From Flagellimonas allohymeniacidonis (GTDB taxonomy: Bacteria > Bacteroidota > Bacteroidia > Flavobacteriales > Flavobacteriaceae): DNA of 64,000 nt. The position numbers and the translations under genes were made by a program. The notes below the pieces were generated by a model. That model did not search any database. It was not told the origin of the DNA and saw nothing but the letters and a program-made list of their open reading frames with translations. Where the stretch lies: assembly GCF_004296335.1 (NCBI RefSeq), contig NZ_SGIU01000001.1, forward strand, positions 1,589,290 through 1,653,289, read 5' to 3'. Shown piece by piece: positions 46,454-61,602 of the stretch; positions within the stretch are counted from its first letter, which is position 1; every line of letters begins with the position of its first letter.

Positions 46454-46565
46454 TTTTTTGGCCCAATTCGTGTTATAATTTTAGGCCTAATTCGTCTAAT
46501 TCGCGAGCAACCCTTTTAGGGTTTTATGCGTCTTGAACGTATACCCAAAAATCAAAAACGAATTC

Positions 46566-48071
46566 ATGTCAGTCTATAAATCCCATTTCACGCTACTTTT
46601 TGCCCTCTTGGGTGCAAGTTTTGTAACCGCCCAAACGACCATTACTTCTCGATTGGTCGATGCCAAGACCGAAAGGGGCATTCCCTATGCCACGGTGCAG
46701 TATGGCGAATACAAAGGGGTGATCACCAACGAGGAAGGCCGCTTTAGTTTTCTGTTGGAGGAAGGCACTGAACTGCTCGATTCCATCTATGTATCCTCCA
46801 TGGGATACCAAAAAACCGGGCTGACGCTGGAGCAACTGCAGGACACCTTGATCACTATCAAACCCAAGGCCATTGAGCTGAGCGGGGTGTACCTTTTTGA
46901 TAAGGAGCTGAGTGTGGACGATATTATGGAGAAGGTAAAGGAGCGCCTGCCCCAAAATGTGAACAATGCACCCATAAAACAGCGGTATTTTTTACGACAG
47001 TCCATTTTTGGGACTGTGCAAAAGTTGGATATGGGCTTTGAAAAATCCTCCATCGAGGAGCTGGACAAAGAGCTCGTAGATAGCATCGCCCGCATCATTC
47101 CCCGAAATTCCTACCACTATACCGAAACCTTGGGGGATTTTTACAAAACCAAGGACGACGATTACAAGGTGAGCGTTTTGCGCGCCGCCGAGCTATACGA
47201 CAAAAAAGATATTGGCTCTTTTGAGGACCTGGGCAAGCGTATGGAGGAAATGTTCAAGCAGAACGTAAAGAAAGATTCGTACCTCAAGATCAAGTCGGGG
47301 CTGTTTAGCCAAAAGGTGCAGGTCGATTCCATTTTGACCGAAATTCAGGAGCAAGAAGCCAAAGAACTCGAAAAAGAACTGGGCAAGGACACCATTTCAG
47401 GGCTGGTGGATGCCCAAAAGCGCATTTTTAAGGAGGTGTTGGGCGAGGTGTACCACGAGGAGGACACCAAACTGAACGTGATCGACAAAAGCCGTAAGTA
47501 CCGCTTTGAACTGGTGGGCTATGCCGATATTGACGATGCCGGGGTGTATGTGATCAGTTTTGAGCCCAAGGGCAGTGCCGATTTTAGGGGGCGTTTGTAT
47601 GTGAACATCGAGGATTTTGCCGTGATGCAAGTGGACTTTGAAAACCTGAAAAACCTGCGCAACTTTCGCCTGTTGGGTATTTTTTACCGCGAAACGCTGT
47701 ACAAGGGCACCATGCGCTTTAGCAAACTGCCCAACAACCGCTATGATCTACGCTTTGTGGACTTTACCTTTGGGCGTTGGTTCCGGTTTGATAGGCCGTT
47801 GGATGTGATTGAAAAGAACAAGAATGTTCGTGGTCGCCGCAAGCAGAACGAGCTGCGCCTCAATATCGATTTTCGTATGGCCAACACCAACAAATGGGAA
47901 CTGGTGGTATACGACAATACCCTTATTGACAAGGCCCAGTTTGAGGCCCTTACCGAGGACAAAAGCGTTAAGGCCACTTATATGCCCACCTACAACCCTG
48001 AGTTTTGGCAGGGCTATACCATTATGGAGCCCAACCAGGCCATTCGGGAGTTTACGGTGGAGGGGAAGTAG
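46566..48071 (+). CDS. CarboxypepD_reg-like outer-membrane-associated protein
   Basis: About 501 residues from ATG at 46566 (the longer frame from a TTG at 46533 lacks a signal at its start). Signal peptide ...GASFVTAQ, then a carboxypeptidase-regulatory-like beta domain (TITSRLVDAKTERGIPYATV, ITNEEGRFSF, SSMGYQ). The remaining 400 residues (including EVYHEEDTKLNVIDKSRKYRFELVGY-type strands) are beta-rich and not recognised. Such proteins are frequent in the Bacteroidota envelope. Single gene. Confidence 0.75.
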   Translation: MSVYKSHFTLLFALLGASFVTAQTTITSRLVDAKTERGIPYATVQYGEYKGVITNEEGRFSFLLEEGTELLDSIYVSSMGYQKTGLTLEQLQDTLITIKPKAIELSGVYLFDKELSVDDIMEKVKERLPQNVNNAPIKQRYFLRQSIFGTVQKLDMGFEKSSIEELDKELVDSIARIIPRNSYHYTETLGDFYKTKDDDYKVSVLRAAELYDKKDIGSFEDLGKRMEEMFKQNVKKDSYLKIKSGLFSQKVQVDSILTEIQEQEAKELEKELGKDTISGLVDAQKRIFKEVLGEVYHEEDTKLNVIDKSRKYRFELVGYADIDDAGVYVISFEPKGSADFRGRLYVNIEDFAVMQVDFENLKNLRNFRLLGIFYRETLYKGTMRFSKLPNNRYDLRFVDFTFGRWFRFDRPLDVIEKNKNVRGRRKQNELRLNIDFRMANTNKWELVVYDNTLIDKAQFEALTEDKSVKATYMPTYNPEFWQGYTIMEPNQAIREFTVEGK

Positions 48072-48140: not shown

Positions 48141-48665
48141 TTAATTTTCCGAGTTGTATTTCTCATAGATGTCATTATCCAGATATTCCATTACCGGTTC
48201 GTAGGGCAATTTTTCCCATCTGAATTTCCCCTCCATTTTCCATTCGTTGATTTTTTTAATGGAAGTACCGGCTCTTTTTAAGTCAACGTCCAAATTGGTA
48301 TTGCAATCAAAAAGCATGATGCTATCATTTCTTATAATGAAACACTTATTGCTTTTAGGTATTTTTTGAAAATAATCATTTCTCTTGATTAGGCCATTTA
48401 GAAAACAATCTCTGCCAATCCCATATGTTGCAGTGTCCTTTTTGAACGAAATTGCTTTTCTATTTTTATCTTCAAATTCTAGATATAGCCCACAGCCCTT
48501 TATCAGCTCCATTTTTTTGATTACACCAATTTTCGAAGTTTCATAGTTGTTTAGAGTAATTTCTTCAAAGGTTTCATAGTCCCAAGGTCTGTCCAGCATG
48601 AAAAGAAATACCATGAATATAATTGGTAGTGCAATCAATATTTTTATTCCTGGGAATTTTTTCAA
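48141..48665 (-). CDS. Hypothetical single-pass membrane protein
   Basis: 174 residues. One N-terminal hydrophobic segment (about 6-24), the rest soluble and Lys/Asp/Asn-rich (IGRDCFLNGLIKRNDYFQ). No family recognised. It is AT-rich compared with the gene just before it and marks the left edge of the accessory block that runs to about 52177. Confidence 0.55.
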   Translation of the reverse strand: MKKFPGIKILIALPIIFMVFLFMLDRPWDYETFEEITLNNYETSKIGVIKKMELIKGCGLYLEFEDKNRKAISFKKDTATYGIGRDCFLNGLIKRNDYFQKIPKSNKCFIIRNDSIMLFDCNTNLDVDLKRAGTSIKKINEWKMEGKFRWEKLPYEPVMEYLDNDIYEKYNSEN

Positions 48666-49092: not shown

Positions 49093-50106
49093 TTAGCTTA
49101 ATGTTGTGTTTTTTATAACCTCATAGAATTCAGGTTCTACTTTGTCATCAGGAACATTTTTAGAACAATGCATGGTTTTTCTAATACCATTTTTCTTAAA
49201 GTCAATAACCCAACCATTTCTCTTTCTAAATTTGGTTATTTCATAGCTAGCACCATTTCCCTGTCCAGTCCAATTATCATTGTCAATTTGCACCCAATCA
49301 ATTGCAAAATTTAGTTTGTCAATTGATTGTCTAAAGTCATTACAATTTTGGTAACGTGTAGTTTTGACTTTGTGTATTGATTTCTTTAAAATCGATTGTA
49401 CCTTTTTGGGAATGTGAGGTAAAAATACCCTAGGAGGAAATTTATCTCTTTTTACTGCTACTTTCCATTCGTCAATGCTGGTAAAAGTAAAGTTTAACCT
49501 ATTTGTATTATTCAAAAGTCTATAGAAAGTAATTCCCATTGCATATATATCTGAAACCTTATCCATTGGTTTCCCTTCAATTACTTCTAAAGGCTGATGA
49601 GGTCTGTAACCCATTATATTGCTTGGTTCCGCATGATAGTTTATAGCAAGCCCAAAGTCTGATAACTTGATTTCATCATTGTCACCGAACATAATATTTG
49701 CCGGCTTGATGTCTCGATGCAAAATATTGTTATTATGGGCGTGTTCAAGTCCCAACAATGCTTGTTGAATAACCCTGCATGCGTCCTTCACCGAAATAAA
49801 CCTTTTCTCAATATGTTTCTGAATAGAACCTTTTGCCAAGTATTCCATTACGATTATTACAACTTGTTCTCCTCTAAAAATAACAGACCTGACATCTTTT
49901 ACATCGACGATGTGTTTGTGTCTGCACAAATCCAAAGTCTGTCCTTCTTTTACAGCTTTTATAAATTTATCAGGGTCCGTTACTTTAATAACTTTTACGG
50001 CAATTTCATTCTGGAAAAAAGGGTCATAACATAAGAATACATTTCCGAAGAAACCACTTCCAATATGGTCTATTATTTGAAACTTATCTAGCTTTTCCTT
50101 AGCCAT
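49093..50106 (-). CDS. Eukaryotic-like Ser/Thr protein kinase
   Basis: 337 residues, no membrane segment. All kinase motifs are intact: Gly-rich loop GSGFFG (16-21), Lys38 in AVKVIK, Glu54 in helix C, HRDIKPAN (130-137) and DFG (150-152), then a P-loop-less activation segment with PLEVIEGKP and SDIYAMG (APE-equivalent and subdomain IX). After the kinase domain (~260) come about 75 residues with WVIDFKKNG, not recognised. It should phosphorylate Ser/Thr in the cytoplasm. It starts two bases after the stop of the 150-aa gene, so both are made together. AT-rich (17 G+C of 60 at 49321-49380). Confidence 0.9.
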   Translation of the reverse strand: MAKEKLDKFQIIDHIGSGFFGNVFLCYDPFFQNEIAVKVIKVTDPDKFIKAVKEGQTLDLCRHKHIVDVKDVRSVIFRGEQVVIIVMEYLAKGSIQKHIEKRFISVKDACRVIQQALLGLEHAHNNNILHRDIKPANIMFGDNDEIKLSDFGLAINYHAEPSNIMGYRPHQPLEVIEGKPMDKVSDIYAMGITFYRLLNNTNRLNFTFTSIDEWKVAVKRDKFPPRVFLPHIPKKVQSILKKSIHKVKTTRYQNCNDFRQSIDKLNFAIDWVQIDNDNWTGQGNGASYEITKFRKRNGWVIDFKKNGIRKTMHCSKNVPDDKVEPEFYEVIKNTTLS

Positions 50107-50108
50107 AT

Positions 50109-50561
50109 CTACAACAAATTAAACCAAGCAATCAAAACTGAGTCTTTGGTTGCTTTATCCCAATATGGCTTGTGAACCCCAATTATTGGATCAATGTATT
50201 CATAAACATCAGTCTTTTTAGGTTGTCCAAATTTGGTAGCATTAATTCCCTGGGGGGAGTACGAATTGATAGAAATTCCCTTTTTCTTTGCAATCAGATT
50301 TAAAATACCTTGAGGATAACAGGAATTTTTAATTTGAACTAAGGACGACAAAGCCGAAGAAATCTTGTGAGAAATTTTATCTGGCTTGTGCTTGTCAATA
50401 ATTAACGAAATTTGAGTTTCAAACCACTCCATTAGTTCATCAGTTTCCATGTTTGGAAGAACGATTTTGTTTTTCTCAATTATTACCGGTGGATTTGAAC
50501 TATTTTCTAGGACCGCAAACCTGAAGTCATTCTTTGTAAAATTAAACCCTATAACTTTCAT
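50109..50561 (-). CDS. Possible RNase H/RuvC-fold protein
   Basis: 150 residues, cytoplasmic. The order of predicted strands and helices (MKVIGFNFTKNDFRFAVLE, KIVLPN, a long helix, KPDKI, ISINSYSPQGI, and a C-terminal helix ...ATKDSVLIAWF) resembles the RuvC/RNase H-like resolvase fold, with ...KDSVLIA in place of the DAADALA helix, but the N-terminal catalytic Asp is not in place, so it may be inactive. Assignment is tentative. It is translationally coupled to the kinase (2-base gap). Confidence 0.5.
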   Translation of the reverse strand: MKVIGFNFTKNDFRFAVLENSSNPPVIIEKNKIVLPNMETDELMEWFETQISLIIDKHKPDKISHKISSALSSLVQIKNSCYPQGILNLIAKKKGISINSYSPQGINATKFGQPKKTDVYEYIDPIIGVHKPYWDKATKDSVLIAWFNLL

Positions 50562-50657
50562 ATTGCTTTTTACGTTACTGATTACAGCTTTATCGGAAAA
50601 TCAATAGATTGGCATTCATTATGGAATTTTCATAGTGTCCAAACACCTATATTTCCT

Positions 50658-51647
50658 TCAGTTTTTTCCAATTATTTTATTTCTGATTATTACAGTTTTA
50701 ACTTCAGGTGTATTCTTTGAAAATGTGAAATCAGATTCCCATTTTCTATCGTCCAAATCAACTGATTCGTCCACAAGTATTGCAAAAATTAAGGTTCTAA
50801 TATTAGGATGTTGAACATAAAAACCTTTTAATCCACTTAATGTCTTTACTATGGACCTTTTGTCACCATCGTTTTTTATATGCTTCATTTCAATTACCAT
50901 TTGGCTGTTGAACAAATTGAAGTCCGATCTTTTTTCTTGTCCATCATATTTTAATTGAACGTCCTCTCTACTTAGGCTTGGCAACCATGGTTTAACCACA
51001 ATCCAAAAGAGATTCTGAAAATCATATTCATCATTTAGGTTTTTCGTCCAGCCTACCTTGGCTTGTCCGTGATTTGTGACTGAATGCGTGGATGGTACTA
51101 ACCCTCTTAAAATTTCAACAATAAACTCACTTGCTTCTTCAGTTGATGCTCCAATATAAGGTTTAGCAGTTAAGCCATTTTCATTGGCTCTCTCTAAGAA
51201 TTTTTCAAAAGCCTTTTCTTCAATATATTCAATGGTCGAGTTTGGTAATGAGGTCAATTCATGATTTATCCTTTTATCGATTTCGATTTGTTTCTTTTTG
51301 GCTAATTCGGGACTTGCCCCAGTATCCTTGTCATAAAGAAGTAGTGCGTTGACATCTTTAACTAATTTGTCATTACTACTTGCTTCGATGTAACTTTCAT
51401 TTGCTACGCTTGTTGCCCTACCATTTTCCAAAATGAATAAGTCCAAAGCTGTACTATGCTTCAATGTGAAATCTCTTAGTTGTGAAGGCTTAATTCTACT
51501 AGTCGTAGTAATCAGAATATCAATATCGGAACGTGAACTACCCGTTTCAAATCTTCTTGAGCCAAATAAATAGATTTCTGCTATATCGGGAAAATCTTCT
51601 GCAAGAACCTCAATTATAGCCTCTAAATCGATAATTTCTTCATCCAT
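50658..51647 (-). CDS. Nucleotidyltransferase fused to PD-(D/E)XK nuclease-like domain
   Basis: 329 residues. The N-terminus is a pol-beta nucleotidyltransferase (MNT type): GSRRFETGSSRSDIDIL with catalytic Asp41 and Asp43 and a third Asp near 69. The middle (about 110-180) is helical. The C-terminal part has Asp242 (RSDF), then Glu253-x-Lys255 (VIEMK), the D...ExK signature of PD-(D/E)XK nucleases, followed by helix and strand (LIFAILVDES). No signal peptide. It is 96 bases upstream of the RNase H-like/kinase pair on the same strand. MNT and REase domains together are typical of toxin-antitoxin or defence proteins; this fusion and context are not one I recognise. Confidence 0.7.
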   Translation of the reverse strand: MDEEIIDLEAIIEVLAEDFPDIAEIYLFGSRRFETGSSRSDIDILITTTSRIKPSQLRDFTLKHSTALDLFILENGRATSVANESYIEASSNDKLVKDVNALLLYDKDTGASPELAKKKQIEIDKRINHELTSLPNSTIEYIEEKAFEKFLERANENGLTAKPYIGASTEEASEFIVEILRGLVPSTHSVTNHGQAKVGWTKNLNDEYDFQNLFWIVVKPWLPSLSREDVQLKYDGQEKRSDFNLFNSQMVIEMKHIKNDGDKRSIVKTLSGLKGFYVQHPNIRTLIFAILVDESVDLDDRKWESDFTFSKNTPEVKTVIIRNKIIGKN

Positions 51648-51812: not shown

Positions 51813-52175
51813 GGTGTCAGATGCTAGATGCTAGGTGTTGGGTGCGGGGTGGCGGGTGTTGGATGAAGGGTGAAGTTTCAAATTCCAAATGACAAATCAC
51901 AAATTCCAAAAAAAGAGAATGTTGGGTGGTTGGTGCTTGGAGTTTGGTGCTTGGTGAGGTTTTAAGTTCCAAATGACAAATCAAAAGTTTCAAAAAAGGG
52001 TGTTGCGTGCTTGGTATTTGGTGCTTGGTGCTTGGTGTTGGGTGTTGGGTGTCAGATGATGGATGCGGGGTGTTGGGTGTTGGGTGTTGGGTGAAGGGTA
52101 AAGGGTGAAGGGTTTAATTTATTTGGCCATGCACCTTTTACCCTTAACCTTATACCTTCTACCCTTTACTCCCTA
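51813..52175. repeat. GGTG-type degenerate repeat array
   Basis: About 360 bases made of two unit types: a G-rich unit (GGTGTTGGGTG, GGTGCTTGGTG, GATGCTAGGTGTCAGATG and variants) and an AT-rich unit (TTCCAAATGACAAATCA, three times). Its right end is an inverted version: GGGTAAAGGGTGAAGGG on the left is answered by ACCCTTAACC...CTACCCTTTAC on the right. No ORF. The same G-rich units occur at 34016-34095 and a trace near 48077-48097. Confidence 0.75.
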
Positions 52176-52177
52176 AC

Positions 52178-54376
52178 TCAATTACAGTCGCCGTTATAAC
52201 TATCAATATTCGACCAGATGTGGCTGCACTCTTCCGCTGAGAAATTTTGCCGGTGCTGTTTGGGGTTGCTGATCATAAAACGTTTCCTGTCCCTAATCCC
52301 CTTATGTTCGTTGCCTCCATCTTCATTTCTGGGCAAATCAATCAACAAATGCCCCAATTCGTGAATCAGTACATTGTTATTGACATCCAGTCCAGCCGTC
52401 ATGATGATGCCGGTACCGCTATTCTGCGCGCCCGTGGTCTCCGGAAAATCGTTGGGGGAAATGGTCACTGCCCATCCCTTATACCATCTACCTCTTTTAT
52501 GAAACACTTCGGGCACCATATAAACCGGGTTACAATTGGCCTTTCGGCATTTTTTAAGCAAGTTTTTCAATTCAGGGGAAAGTTTCCATGCGTCCTTGGT
52601 AGCATCGTTTCTATTGAAGGTCGAATTTCCTCCTTCCTTCCAAATACCGCCTTCGAGCTTTCCGGGCTTGGCCCCTCCGTTCACAATGGGCCGATATTCC
52701 CGCCAAGTCAGGTTGTTGTAACAGGCCTTGATCTTCACCTTGGGGCAGCAATTGGCGATGTTGTTATCAAAGTGCTGTTGCGCCTTCGCGACCTCTGCCT
52801 CAGCCAAGGTCTTGAGCTGGGCAAAGGTTTTGCCTCCCGGTTTTGTGACCAAACAGAAATTAAGACAAAGCTGTTTTTCGCGCCTTTCCTTTTGGGGCCG
52901 GCAATAACGCAAACCGGGGTGCAATGCATGGTTTCTATTGGGGGACCGTTGAATCACGATATCACCGCTCATCACTTCTAAACAGGCCTCCAATTCATTC
53001 AAACAGGTGTACAGGAGTTCAGTAACCACTAACCTTGGCGTCTTTTCTGAAAGCGGGACTTCCATTTTTTCGATGGTCAACCGCAGGTTGCCCTCTGCAT
53101 CTGTGCTGGTCGATACGGGAGGTATCATATCGTCATGGTCGGTGGCCGATACAAACTCCGCGGCCTCACCAGGAGATGATACGGCCACTGAAAGTGCCTT
53201 GGCCATTCCGCCACCTGAAGATGGGAACACCTCCACTTGCACCCGAAAGCTGTCCCCCACAAAAGCATAATCATTCTCCTCCACAGGGCGCAAGTACACA
53301 CCGGGCAAGTCTACCCGAGTAGATGTTGAAAGTTTTTCAAAGGTTGCGGTTACCTGGGCTATGGAATCTTGCTCAAAGTTGAGATGCGCCGCCGCCGAAG
53401 TTCCCTCACTTGGGGAAATAGGCTTTACATTTCCTGTTGAGGTTGACCAATCGACCCCTTGCATGGGGACTATATTTCCAAAATTGTCGAGGGCCCTGAG
53501 TTCAACCGTGGTTTGGTCATAAGGGGGTTGATGTCTGGGGTTTTCCACAGGCAAGAATTCCAAAGAGCTCACCGTACCAGGTAAAAATGCTATCTCTTCT
53601 TCAATGGTGAACTCCGAGCTTTCGTCGCCGATAGTAAGCCACTGCTTCGCTGCATATTCTGACTGCAAGTTGAAGGTGAATATGCCATCTCCTTCCGATG
53701 TGCCTTCAAAGGTCTGTGGAGGAATCTCAGGAAAGTCTTCACTCACAAAGGATGCCAGTAAATTGGCGTTCTCCACGGGTGCATCAAGCCAGTCCGTGGC
53801 CCTCACCTGCATTTGCAAAGGTTCATCCACAGAAACGGGGTCGAAGGGTAGAACGGTCAGTTTTGATGTAATGCCTTCGGTATAAATGGTTATAAAGGCG
53901 TCCACGCTGTCGAAAAAATCAGGAAGTGTTGCGCGCACCACATAAACTCCAGCACTGCTCCCCAGTCGAATACCGACATTGGCCCGGCCTTGATCATCAG
54001 TAGCTGTGGAGCTCCCTTCTCCACCAGTGAACAACTCCATATTGGCCCCGTCGGGTTGTGCTATTACCTCGAAGGAAACCGTAACGGGCATCACCTCACC
54101 CTTGGCATTGGTTGGGGGTTCCTTGTCTTCATTTCGTACCAACAGGGTGATTCCGTGCTGTATTAGCTCTCCGCTGCGGCCGTACGCGTCAAAATTGGTT
54201 TCTGCAGCTAAGGACTGTACGATAAAGGGGCCGTTCAAATCGCTGGTGGTCTGTTCGTCCTGTTGCTTTTCCTTGCATCCCAAAAATGCCAGAATCATAA
54301 GTACACCCATACCTATTGACTTGAAATTTCTAAATTCAATAGATGCTGCATTTTTAATCTTTTGCTTGATTATCAT
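52178..54376 (-). CDS. Lipoprotein with Ig-like domains and C-terminal zinc metalloprotease
   Basis: 732 residues. Lipoprotein signal with Cys34 (LAFLGC). Residues about 55-440 contain four or five Ig/Big-like beta modules (each with GSSTATDDQGRANVG-, FTFNLQSEY-, LRALDNFG- or LRLTIEKM-type strands). The C-terminal ~250 residues carry six or more Cys (CLNELEACL, CRPQ, LCLNFCL, NCCPKVKIKAC), disulphide candidates, and a metzincin motif HELGHLLIDLP starting at His672, with a Met-turn-like FMIS 24 residues later and a further His in between (His691). It should be an extracytoplasmic protease anchored in the outer membrane. Confidence 0.7.
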   Translation of the reverse strand: MIIKQKIKNAASIEFRNFKSIGMGVLMILAFLGCKEKQQDEQTTSDLNGPFIVQSLAAETNFDAYGRSGELIQHGITLLVRNEDKEPPTNAKGEVMPVTVSFEVIAQPDGANMELFTGGEGSSTATDDQGRANVGIRLGSSAGVYVVRATLPDFFDSVDAFITIYTEGITSKLTVLPFDPVSVDEPLQMQVRATDWLDAPVENANLLASFVSEDFPEIPPQTFEGTSEGDGIFTFNLQSEYAAKQWLTIGDESSEFTIEEEIAFLPGTVSSLEFLPVENPRHQPPYDQTTVELRALDNFGNIVPMQGVDWSTSTGNVKPISPSEGTSAAAHLNFEQDSIAQVTATFEKLSTSTRVDLPGVYLRPVEENDYAFVGDSFRVQVEVFPSSGGGMAKALSVAVSSPGEAAEFVSATDHDDMIPPVSTSTDAEGNLRLTIEKMEVPLSEKTPRLVVTELLYTCLNELEACLEVMSGDIVIQRSPNRNHALHPGLRYCRPQKERREKQLCLNFCLVTKPGGKTFAQLKTLAEAEVAKAQQHFDNNIANCCPKVKIKACYNNLTWREYRPIVNGGAKPGKLEGGIWKEGGNSTFNRNDATKDAWKLSPELKNLLKKCRKANCNPVYMVPEVFHKRGRWYKGWAVTISPNDFPETTGAQNSGTGIIMTAGLDVNNNVLIHELGHLLIDLPRNEDGGNEHKGIRDRKRFMISNPKQHRQNFSAEECSHIWSNIDSYNGDCN

Positions 54377-59641: not shown

Positions 59642-60574
59642 TTAGCTCGACATCGGTAAGAATACCTCTGCCATCATGCATCGAGCAGAGCCTCCACCAC
59701 AGGTTTCAATGGTATCCAATGGGCTATGAAGAATGGGGCAATGCTTTTCAATCGCAGCAATTTGGTCAGGTCGCAGGCTTTTGTAGGCCGCCGTGCTCAT
59801 CACCATATAGCGTTGGTCGTTGGCTCCAATCACCTGAAGCATGTTCCCCGCAAACTGGTACATCTGTTCTTCCGTGATGGAAATGATTTCCTTGCCATCC
59901 TTTTTAATCTGTTCCACCACATTTTTGCGTTCCTTTTTGTCGTCGATGGTATCGAGGCAAATGACCACAAAGGTTTCGGCCATAGCCATCATCACATTGG
60001 TGTGGTAAATGGGCAATCGTTCCCCATCCACAGTTTGATTGGCCGTAAAAATCACCGGGAAGCAATCAAAATCCTCACAAAACTCAATAAAAAGCTCCTC
60101 GTGGGCACGTTCGGAGAGGGCGCAATAGGCCTTTTGGTTCACACGGTCCTTCAAGATGCTACCGGTGCCTTCCAGAAATACACCTTCCTCCTCAGCGGAG
60201 GTATAGTCCATCACATCATTGATTTGGAAACCATTCTCCTCAAGGATTTCGAAAATATCCTCTCGACGTTCTTTTCTGCGGTTTTCGGCAAACATGGGAT
60301 ACACACAGACCGTTCCATTGGAGTGGAAAGACACCCAATTGTTCGGAAAAATGGAATCGGGGGTATCCGTTTCCACCTTGTCATCCACAACAATCATGTT
60401 GACGCCATGGGCACGAAGCTTTTCCACAAAGGCATCAAACTCCTGTTGGGCCCTTTTGTTGATTTCGGCATTGGTGATATCGGGCCTTTCTTGAAAGTAG
60501 TTATTTACGGCAGTCTGTTCATTCATCCGGAAATTGACCGGCCTGATCATGAGTATGGTGTTGGTAATCTGCAT
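59642..60574 (-). CDS. ctlX: Citrulline-utilisation hydrolase CtlX-like (guanidino-group hydrolase)
   Basis: 310 residues of the amidinotransferase/arginine deiminase superfamily: SIFPNNWVSFH, FLEGTGSILKD, YHTNVMMAMAE, and catalytic Cys in GGGSARCMMAEVFLP. It hydrolyses a guanidino- or ureido-type substrate such as citrulline or arginine. The symbol is by family resemblance. It lies downstream of a second guanidino hydrolase, with a palindromic repeat between them. Confidence 0.8.
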   Translation of the reverse strand: MQITNTILMIRPVNFRMNEQTAVNNYFQERPDITNAEINKRAQQEFDAFVEKLRAHGVNMIVVDDKVETDTPDSIFPNNWVSFHSNGTVCVYPMFAENRRKERREDIFEILEENGFQINDVMDYTSAEEEGVFLEGTGSILKDRVNQKAYCALSERAHEELFIEFCEDFDCFPVIFTANQTVDGERLPIYHTNVMMAMAETFVVICLDTIDDKKERKNVVEQIKKDGKEIISITEEQMYQFAGNMLQVIGANDQRYMVMSTAAYKSLRPDQIAAIEKHCPILHSPLDTIETCGGGSARCMMAEVFLPMSS

Positions 60575-60621
60575 TCTTAATTCGTATCAGCTTGCTTTTC
60601 TGGTTGACCCTTTAGGGTCTG

Positions 60622-60679
60622 GTCATCTTGAGCGGGGTCGAAAGGCGGATAAGACATCTCGACTGGGCTCGATGTGACA
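60622..60679. repeat. TCGA-type palindromic interspersed repeat
   Basis: Two inverted halves: GTCATCTTGAGCGGGGTCGA (60622-60641) and, after 11 bases, GACATCTCGACTGGGCTCGA plus TGTGACA (60653-60679). A copy of the second half is inside argS (42477-42503, 24 of 27 identical). From memory such TCGA-core repeats are scattered through flavobacterial genomes. Confidence 0.6.
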
Positions 60680-60684
60680 TTCTA

Positions 60685-61602
60685 TTACTTTTCTCTAATC
60701 AAGGGCATGGTGCTGCATCGCAACAACCCCTCTTGTTTGGCGATTTCGGCATAGGGAATTTCCTCTACCGTAAAACCTTGTTCCCTGAGCCAATTATTCA
60801 GTCTTGTAAAGCTTTTCTCAGAAACCACAACCTCGGGCGATATGGAGAACACATTGCTGAACATATTGTACATCTCGTCCTTATCAATTTCGAAAATATT
60901 CTCTTTTCCGAAATAATCCACCAACCACTGGTATTCCTCCTCCACCAAAAAACCATTTTTGTGCAAGATGGCCTTATCCTTACCCACAGGTTGAAAACAG
61001 CAGTCCAAATGCAAAGCGTTGTCTTTGGCATTGGTATTGGACTTTCGTAACTCAAAGGCTTTTACGGTTTTATTCGGAAATAGCTCCTGAATAAACTCGA
61101 CGGCCTCCTTATTGGTTCGCGCCGTAATGAAGTCAGGATAGTCCTTACCGGTATAGGTTCCTATGAAAATATAATCATTCCATGGCATTACATCTCCTCC
61201 TTCGATATGGACTTCTTCCGGCGGTCTAATGATCTTCTTGGGGTCAATTTGGTCCAAAACTTCATGGATGGCTTCAAACTCCCTTTCCCGATCCGGTAAA
61301 ATATTGGAATGGAACAGCTTGTCCTCAATTACAAAAGCAATGTCCCGAGAGAAAATCTGGTTACAGTCCTTCAACACCTCTGGGCGGAATACTTTTACTC
61401 CGTATTTATGAAAAACTTCAGCAAAGGCATCCATTTCTTTGACCATATCTTCTTCCTTGGGATACGTTCCTGCCAAAATATGCTCCAAGGATTTTGGATC
61501 ATAGGCCTCCTCGGGTTTCGGTACCGGTCCACAGCTTTCAGCAGTTCCCAAAATCACCGCTTTCAAGGGTGCTGTTTCATCCACAATATGCAATTGCATC
61601 AT
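60685..61602 (-). CDS. Dimethylarginine dimethylaminohydrolase / amidinotransferase family enzyme
   Basis: 305 residues. Superfamily motifs: FSRDIAFV, EGGDVMPW (Glu-Asp pair), LHLDCCFQP with the catalytic His, and LLRCSTMPL with the catalytic Cys near the C-terminus. It hydrolyses or transfers the guanidino group of arginine or methylated arginine. With the following ctlX-like gene it forms a pair for arginine/citrulline breakdown. No transporter or rocD in the window. Confidence 0.85.
   Translation of the reverse strand: MMQLHIVDETAPLKAVILGTAESCGPVPKPEEAYDPKSLEHILAGTYPKEEDMVKEMDAFAEVFHKYGVKVFRPEVLKDCNQIFSRDIAFVIEDKLFHSNILPDREREFEAIHEVLDQIDPKKIIRPPEEVHIEGGDVMPWNDYIFIGTYTGKDYPDFITARTNKEAVEFIQELFPNKTVKAFELRKSNTNAKDNALHLDCCFQPVGKDKAILHKNGFLVEEEYQWLVDYFGKENIFEIDKDEMYNMFSNVFSISPEVVVSEKSFTRLNNWLREQGFTVEEIPYAEIAKQEGLLRCSTMPLIREK

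Follow-up and report, generated by a model that had tools for sequence, protein, structure and literature searches.

The unit conserved at this locus of Flagellimonas allohymeniacidonis is a pair of genes encoding a RuvC-like protein and a serine/threonine kinase. On balance, we favor the reading that this pair is a mobile two-gene defence module in which the RuvC-like protein (referred to as "pseudo-RuvC") is most likely a subunit of the kinase with a sensing or regulatory function. This reading builds on the pairing and order of the genes, the fold and dead site of pseudo-RuvC, the intact kinase residues, the presence or absence of the pair among sister genomes, and the frequent restriction and defence genes in its neighborhood.

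Genomic setting of the gene block

We analyzed a 64,000-nt stretch of the F. allohymeniacidonis genome (hereafter, the window) and focused on the block at 49093..51647, in which all three genes lie on the minus strand. In minus-strand order, a fusion gene for an MNT-type nucleotidyltransferase (NTase) joined to a DpnII/MboI-type PD-(D/E)XK nuclease (REase) (NTase-REase; 50658..51647, minus strand, 329-aa ORF) is followed after 96 bp by the pseudo-RuvC gene (50109..50561, minus strand, 150-aa ORF) and after a further 2 bp by the kinase gene (49093..50106, minus strand, 337-aa ORF). These three same-strand ORFs, and the kinase lying two bases from the 150-aa gene, agree with a preliminary description of the locus.

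The same description had pointed out an unusual base composition, and the G+C content of the block was indeed 0.337, compared with 0.426 for the window and 0.483 and 0.453 for the flanks at 46533-48071 and 59642-61602, respectively. With values of 0.335-0.341, the three genes were among the four lowest-G+C ORFs when the 54 non-overlapping ORFs that are 120 aa or longer were compared. The lowest value in this comparison (0.326) belonged to a 174-aa gene at 48141-48665, which was unmatched in the 10 sister loci described below. G/T-rich tandem repeats with units of 84, 35, 14, and 7 bp occupied positions 51869-52113, between the NTase gene and a gene for a 732-aa protein (52178-54376) carrying a Big_1 domain and, by eye, a HELGH metalloprotease-like motif; the sister loci likewise contained no match to this protein. 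The repeat array, earlier given as 360 bases long, is covered by TRF rows over 245 bp.

To place the block among sister genomes, we used as anchors a CarboxypepD-regulatory-like gene at 46533-48071, which was matched in all 40 genus genomes including the window's own, and a gene at 59642-60574. We compared the stretch downstream of the homologue of the first anchor in 10 of the 39 other genus genomes, mostly the most similar ones. Both anchors were matched in all 10 sister loci, and the distance between them was approximately 0.3 to 6 kb in the sisters versus 11.6 kb in the window. All three genes of the block lacked a match in these 10 loci (tblastn, E <= 1e-5). The spot between the anchors is variable, with cargo that changes among sisters, and the block is an insertion relative to these genomes, as had been suspected. 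A RelA/SpoT-domain gene (L043:2799-3704) occupied this spot as alternative cargo in the sister whose anchor gene was most similar. Across the 59 relatives searched, the 150-aa protein was absent from the other 58, the window's own genome being the sole match.

A conserved pair of a RuvC-like protein and a kinase

Eight pseudo-RuvC loci emerged from a scan of species-representative genomes; seven were full length, and a kinase was encoded directly downstream in all seven. Further searches added six loci (G429, G409, G762, G574, G501, and G1197), again with a kinase directly downstream in every case. The search that yielded G429 and G409 was positive in 3 of 395 genomes, counting the window's own; the one that yielded G762, G574, and G501 was positive in 6 of 395, again counting the window's own, and cellular RuvC accounted for two of these six. 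For G1197, 2 of 199 genomes were positive, counting the one at the centre of the search. In the phylum of the Calditrichia genome, the positives (2 of 40) were the central genome and one cellular RuvC, and in the order of the Parachryseolinea genome the single positive (1 of 231) was the central genome itself.

Four candidates were dropped from the pair count. Three of them (L062, L063, and L072) were ordinary cellular RuvC proteins with a GIDPG motif and D/E/D/D residues. The fourth (L009, from a Prevotellaceae MAG) was a broken copy in which only the first 25 pseudo-RuvC residues were matched and no kinase was found. Its match forms the end of an 847-column stretch that is 92.6% identical to L003; these MAG contigs (L009:1-846 and L003:1-840), which come from one sample series, have in common a Vsr gene and the opening codons of pseudo-RuvC, beyond which they diverge, marking either a broken copy or a recombination point.

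The pair was adjacent in all 14 intact members, the window included, with gaps of -4 to +17 bp and pseudo-RuvC always first. Paired loci were found in Flavobacterium, Maribacter, Parachryseolinea, Dysgonomonas, Bacteroidales, Flavobacteriaceae, and Calditrichia. Because identity to the window proteins drops to 11% for pseudo-RuvC and 22% for the kinase, the gene order is old. The distance matrices of the two proteins were correlated at r = 0.972 over the 14 pairs (a value reached in 0 of 10,000 permutations) and at 0.83 over the eight most divergent pairs (reached in 3 of 10,000), with label permutations that do not model relatedness among the sequences. The copy from the Calditrichia MAG was 61% identical to that of the window, whereas two copies from the window's own phylum were 21 and 23% identical, which points to horizontal transfer of the pair. 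No pseudo-RuvC relative was found in phage, plasmid, or viral collections; a pseudo-RuvC sequence alone, without gene context, is also recorded under the name Petrocella atlantisensis (Bacillota).

The RuvC RNase H-like fold spans the whole 150-aa protein. Its match to the Pfam family RuvC (PF02075) reached 17.4 bits, below the gathering cut-off of 22.2, and structural alignments gave 11-15% identity to bacterial RuvCs. In the catalytic-acid columns, which in E. coli RuvC numbering we take to include E66, D138, and D141, the window protein has N7, K66, A137, and D140, so that the last acid alone is kept and the D-E-D/H-D tetrad of RuvC resolvases is lacking; the same four columns read D/E/D/D in four cellular RuvCs. 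The preliminary description had proposed a possible RNase H/RuvC fold and had noted that the first catalytic Asp seemed to be missing; it was correct on both counts. Among 127 distinct pseudo-RuvC sequences, the catalytic-Glu column held Lys in 116 and Arg in 11, the third-acid column Asp in none and Glu in 2, and the first-Asp column Asn in 110 and Asp in 3, two of the last being nearly identical proteins. Elsewhere in the fold, G112 and W134 (each in 127 of 130 rows) and K139 (124 of 130) were conserved. Laboratory dead mutants carry the same replacement of the first Asp by Asn: PDB entry 6is8 is titled as a D115N MOC1 with a Holliday junction, and PMC3864405 describes the phage RuvC mutant D8N as nuclease-deficient and as corresponding to E. 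coli D7N. Judging from these residues, pseudo-RuvC can hardly cut DNA. We also considered that it might be the cellular RuvC, which was ruled out because the host encodes its own RuvC elsewhere in the genome (138 bits).

The kinase matched Pkinase (PF00069) with 147 bits against a cut-off of 31.7. It is a cytoplasmic Hanks-type Ser/Thr kinase with GxG, K38, E54, HRD, and DFG motifs and a C-terminal domain of approximately 70 aa, and its earlier characterization as complete holds. Both loop glycines, K38, E54, HxD, K134, N137, and the DFG aspartate were kept in all 14 paired kinases; the HRD Arg was replaced (by K, G, or C) in three of them, and DFG was DYG in one. With its catalytic residues intact, the kinase is functional-looking. 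The C-terminal stretch (residues 262-337; 49096..49323, minus strand) was predicted to form a domain of five strands and a helix (pLDDT 92.2) without a clear PDB or fold match, and weak fold rows for it (MmoD, phage coat proteins, and PUR-alpha repeats) were set aside. A profile of this domain matched 3 of 227 genomes, all known pairs; all three have sequences inside the model itself, so that only the missing unpaired copies elsewhere are informative.

Defence neighborhood and possible roles of the pair

The genes around the pair point to a probable defence context, in line with what had been suggested from the window. Matches to PADLOC models (E <= 1e-5) occurred within a few genes of the pair in 10 of the 13 other loci and in 17 of the 25 neighbor genes scanned. 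These neighbors were chosen by eye once the beginnings of their sequences had been viewed, so the counts are support rather than a statistic. In a small control of 10 distal genes approximately 4-6 kb away, there was one match, an ABC-transporter-like cross-match. The neighbors comprised Vsr and an integrase (L003), bSEFIR (L004), an HSDR_N protein (L005; weak, E 5.7e-6), PDC-S21 (L006), a Schlafen AlbA_2 protein that matches pAgo models (L007; weak or cross-match), a type II methyltransferase and a CoiA-type nuclease (L059), AbiLi and a type IIG enzyme (L064), a PDC-S37/Hhe-like helicase-REase (L065), and Ppl with a type III restriction-modification (R-M) system (L071). In the remaining positive locus (L061:2273-10314), the pair lies inside a type I R-M locus, with an HsdM-type methyltransferase gene on either side; the same locus includes HsdS and an AbiEii-type gene. 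No PADLOC match was found among the two genes scanned in L008 or the one scanned in L060, and L002 was left out of the neighbor scan.

Pseudo-RuvC may still bind nucleic acid, branched DNA being the most natural guess, or a partner that RuvC binds, and would most likely act as the kinase's sensing or regulatory subunit. The trigger might be the appearance, in a phage or plasmid attack, of replication DNA that is branched or foreign in some other way, or the failure of neighboring restriction. The kinase would then be released or activated and would phosphorylate host or phage proteins, so that growth stops. For the pair, we infer the physical complex, the ligand, the trigger, the phosphorylation target, and the defence phenotype. 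A more specific version is tentative: the pair might represent an immune-system family in which an inactivated Holliday-junction resolvase acts as the reader of branched DNA arising in phage replication or recombination and turns on a kinase directly. If true, DNA-structure sensing would be coupled to kinase signalling in only two genes.

Two rivals to a sensor-kinase module are the strongest: the pair might work as toxin and antitoxin, or pseudo-RuvC might be a decoy for phage resolvases. In a toxin-antitoxin arrangement, the kinase would be a growth-inhibiting toxin and pseudo-RuvC its inhibitor or substrate, and shut-off by a phage would free the kinase. A small upstream gene immediately followed by an enzyme gene fits this picture, as do the presence or absence among sisters and the position of the pair next to AbiLi in L064 and next to HigB/HigA-like ORFs (identified by eye) in L065. 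However, a RuvC fold kept across 150 aa would exceed the usual needs of an inhibitor, and we regard this arrangement as rather unlikely.

Somewhat less credible is a decoy, whereby pseudo-RuvC heterodimerizes with or outcompetes phage RuvC-type resolvases and blocks phage DNA maturation, with the kinase in a modulating role. Many of the named viral fold matches are phage RuvC-type resolvases, among rows of which many are nameless or uncharacterized, and the dead MOC1 of PDB entry 6is8 was crystallized with a junction. A precedent for resolvase-linked abortive infection is AbiD1, reported in PMC3710099 as interfering with the RuvC-like resolvase of phage bIL66. A decoy by itself nevertheless leaves the kinase beside every intact copy unexplained, and the host's RuvC would also be threatened.

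We consider it improbable that the pair serves restriction-modification or DNA repair as a regulatory accessory instead of being a stand-alone defence system. Its position between two HsdM genes in L061 and after the type III locus with Ppl in L071 would suit such a role, but no R-M gene pair turned up beside the kinase in the window, L002, L006, L008, or L060, where neighbors were partly scanned.

Least plausible is a three-gene system in which the NTase-REase, as nuclease effector, acts together with the RNase H-like protein and the kinase: despite the common strand, the similarly low G+C, and the 96 bp that separate the NTase gene from the pair, it is largely refuted, as the NTase-REase was missing from all 13 other pair loci (with short flanks on one or both sides in L002, L003, and L004, that of L003 being 747 bp upstream only and occupied by the Vsr gene) and turned up in 1 of 395 genomes of the phylum, namely that of the window, yet has 143 homologues in the protein database. 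The trio proposed in the preliminary description fails the co-occurrence test that it had itself put forward, while its defence context, insertion, fold, and kinase stand.

The NTase-REase is an unrelated neighbor, outside the conserved pair. It matched the DpnII-MboI REase family (PF18742) with 107 bits, above the cut-off of 27, and its NTase part matched Polbeta (PF18765) with 31.7 bits and NTP_transf_2 with 31.0 bits. The GS...DxD and D...ExK signatures recognized earlier are genuine: G29, S30, D41, and D43 of the NTase and D242, E253, and K255 of the REase were each conserved in 112 or more of the 113 aligned homologues. The NTase-REase gene is therefore probably active in its own right and is perhaps a further defence gene. 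Among the 120 database matches listed, which include Vibrio, Pseudomonas, and Burkholderiales, all carried the REase Pfam domain and most the NTase domain. The plasmid collection gave one match at 22% coverage, and phages and viral contigs gave none. Its score against the type VII toxin-antitoxin antitoxin MntA (NF047752) was 21.1 bits, below the cut-off of 60.

Comparison with known systems

The earlier impression that the locus matches no named system was upheld for the pair. The best PADLOC matches of the window kinase were MAD6 of MADS (173.5 bits) and PD-T4-6 (148.3 bits), which share with it a Hanks kinase domain and a defence context. The likeness is limited to the kinase domain, and neither PADLOC set models a pseudo-RuvC partner. 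Against the MAD6 model NF047741, the kinase scored 124.1 bits, far from the cut-off of 460, and none of the other mad proteins, which we presume should accompany the MAD6 kinase in MADS, was detected among the four other window proteins scanned (48.1-51.6 kb, E <= 1). The PD-T4-6 models, which have no curated cut-off, were matched over the kinase domain only. Scores also fell short for PglW of BREX/Pgl (NF033442; 35.1 bits, cut-off 990) and for the PASTA kinase PknB/Stk1 (NF033483; 155.2 bits, cut-off 450). No family of PADLOC-DB 2023 matched pseudo-RuvC at E <= 1, and a RuvC-like protein with a kinase was not found as a defence system in the open-licence PMC papers searched.

RuvC/MOC1-type Holliday-junction resolvases are catalytic, whereas pseudo-RuvC has Lys or Arg in place of the catalytic Glu in all 127 sequences and a kinase as partner. 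TEFM and the YqgF domain of Spt6/Tex are, like pseudo-RuvC, catalytically dead RuvC folds; however, they are transcription factors, whereas pseudo-RuvC is the product of a small mobile bacterial gene accompanied by a kinase.

Kinase-based phage defence is known, although, to our knowledge, what such kinases sense is mostly open. The pair, a defined two-gene family, matches no named system that we found and looks like an undescribed immune switch, of which the pseudo-RuvC sensor would be the new part if confirmed. The presence of the kinase beside a dead junction resolvase in every intact case suggests a testable answer to the question of sensing, namely a DNA branch.
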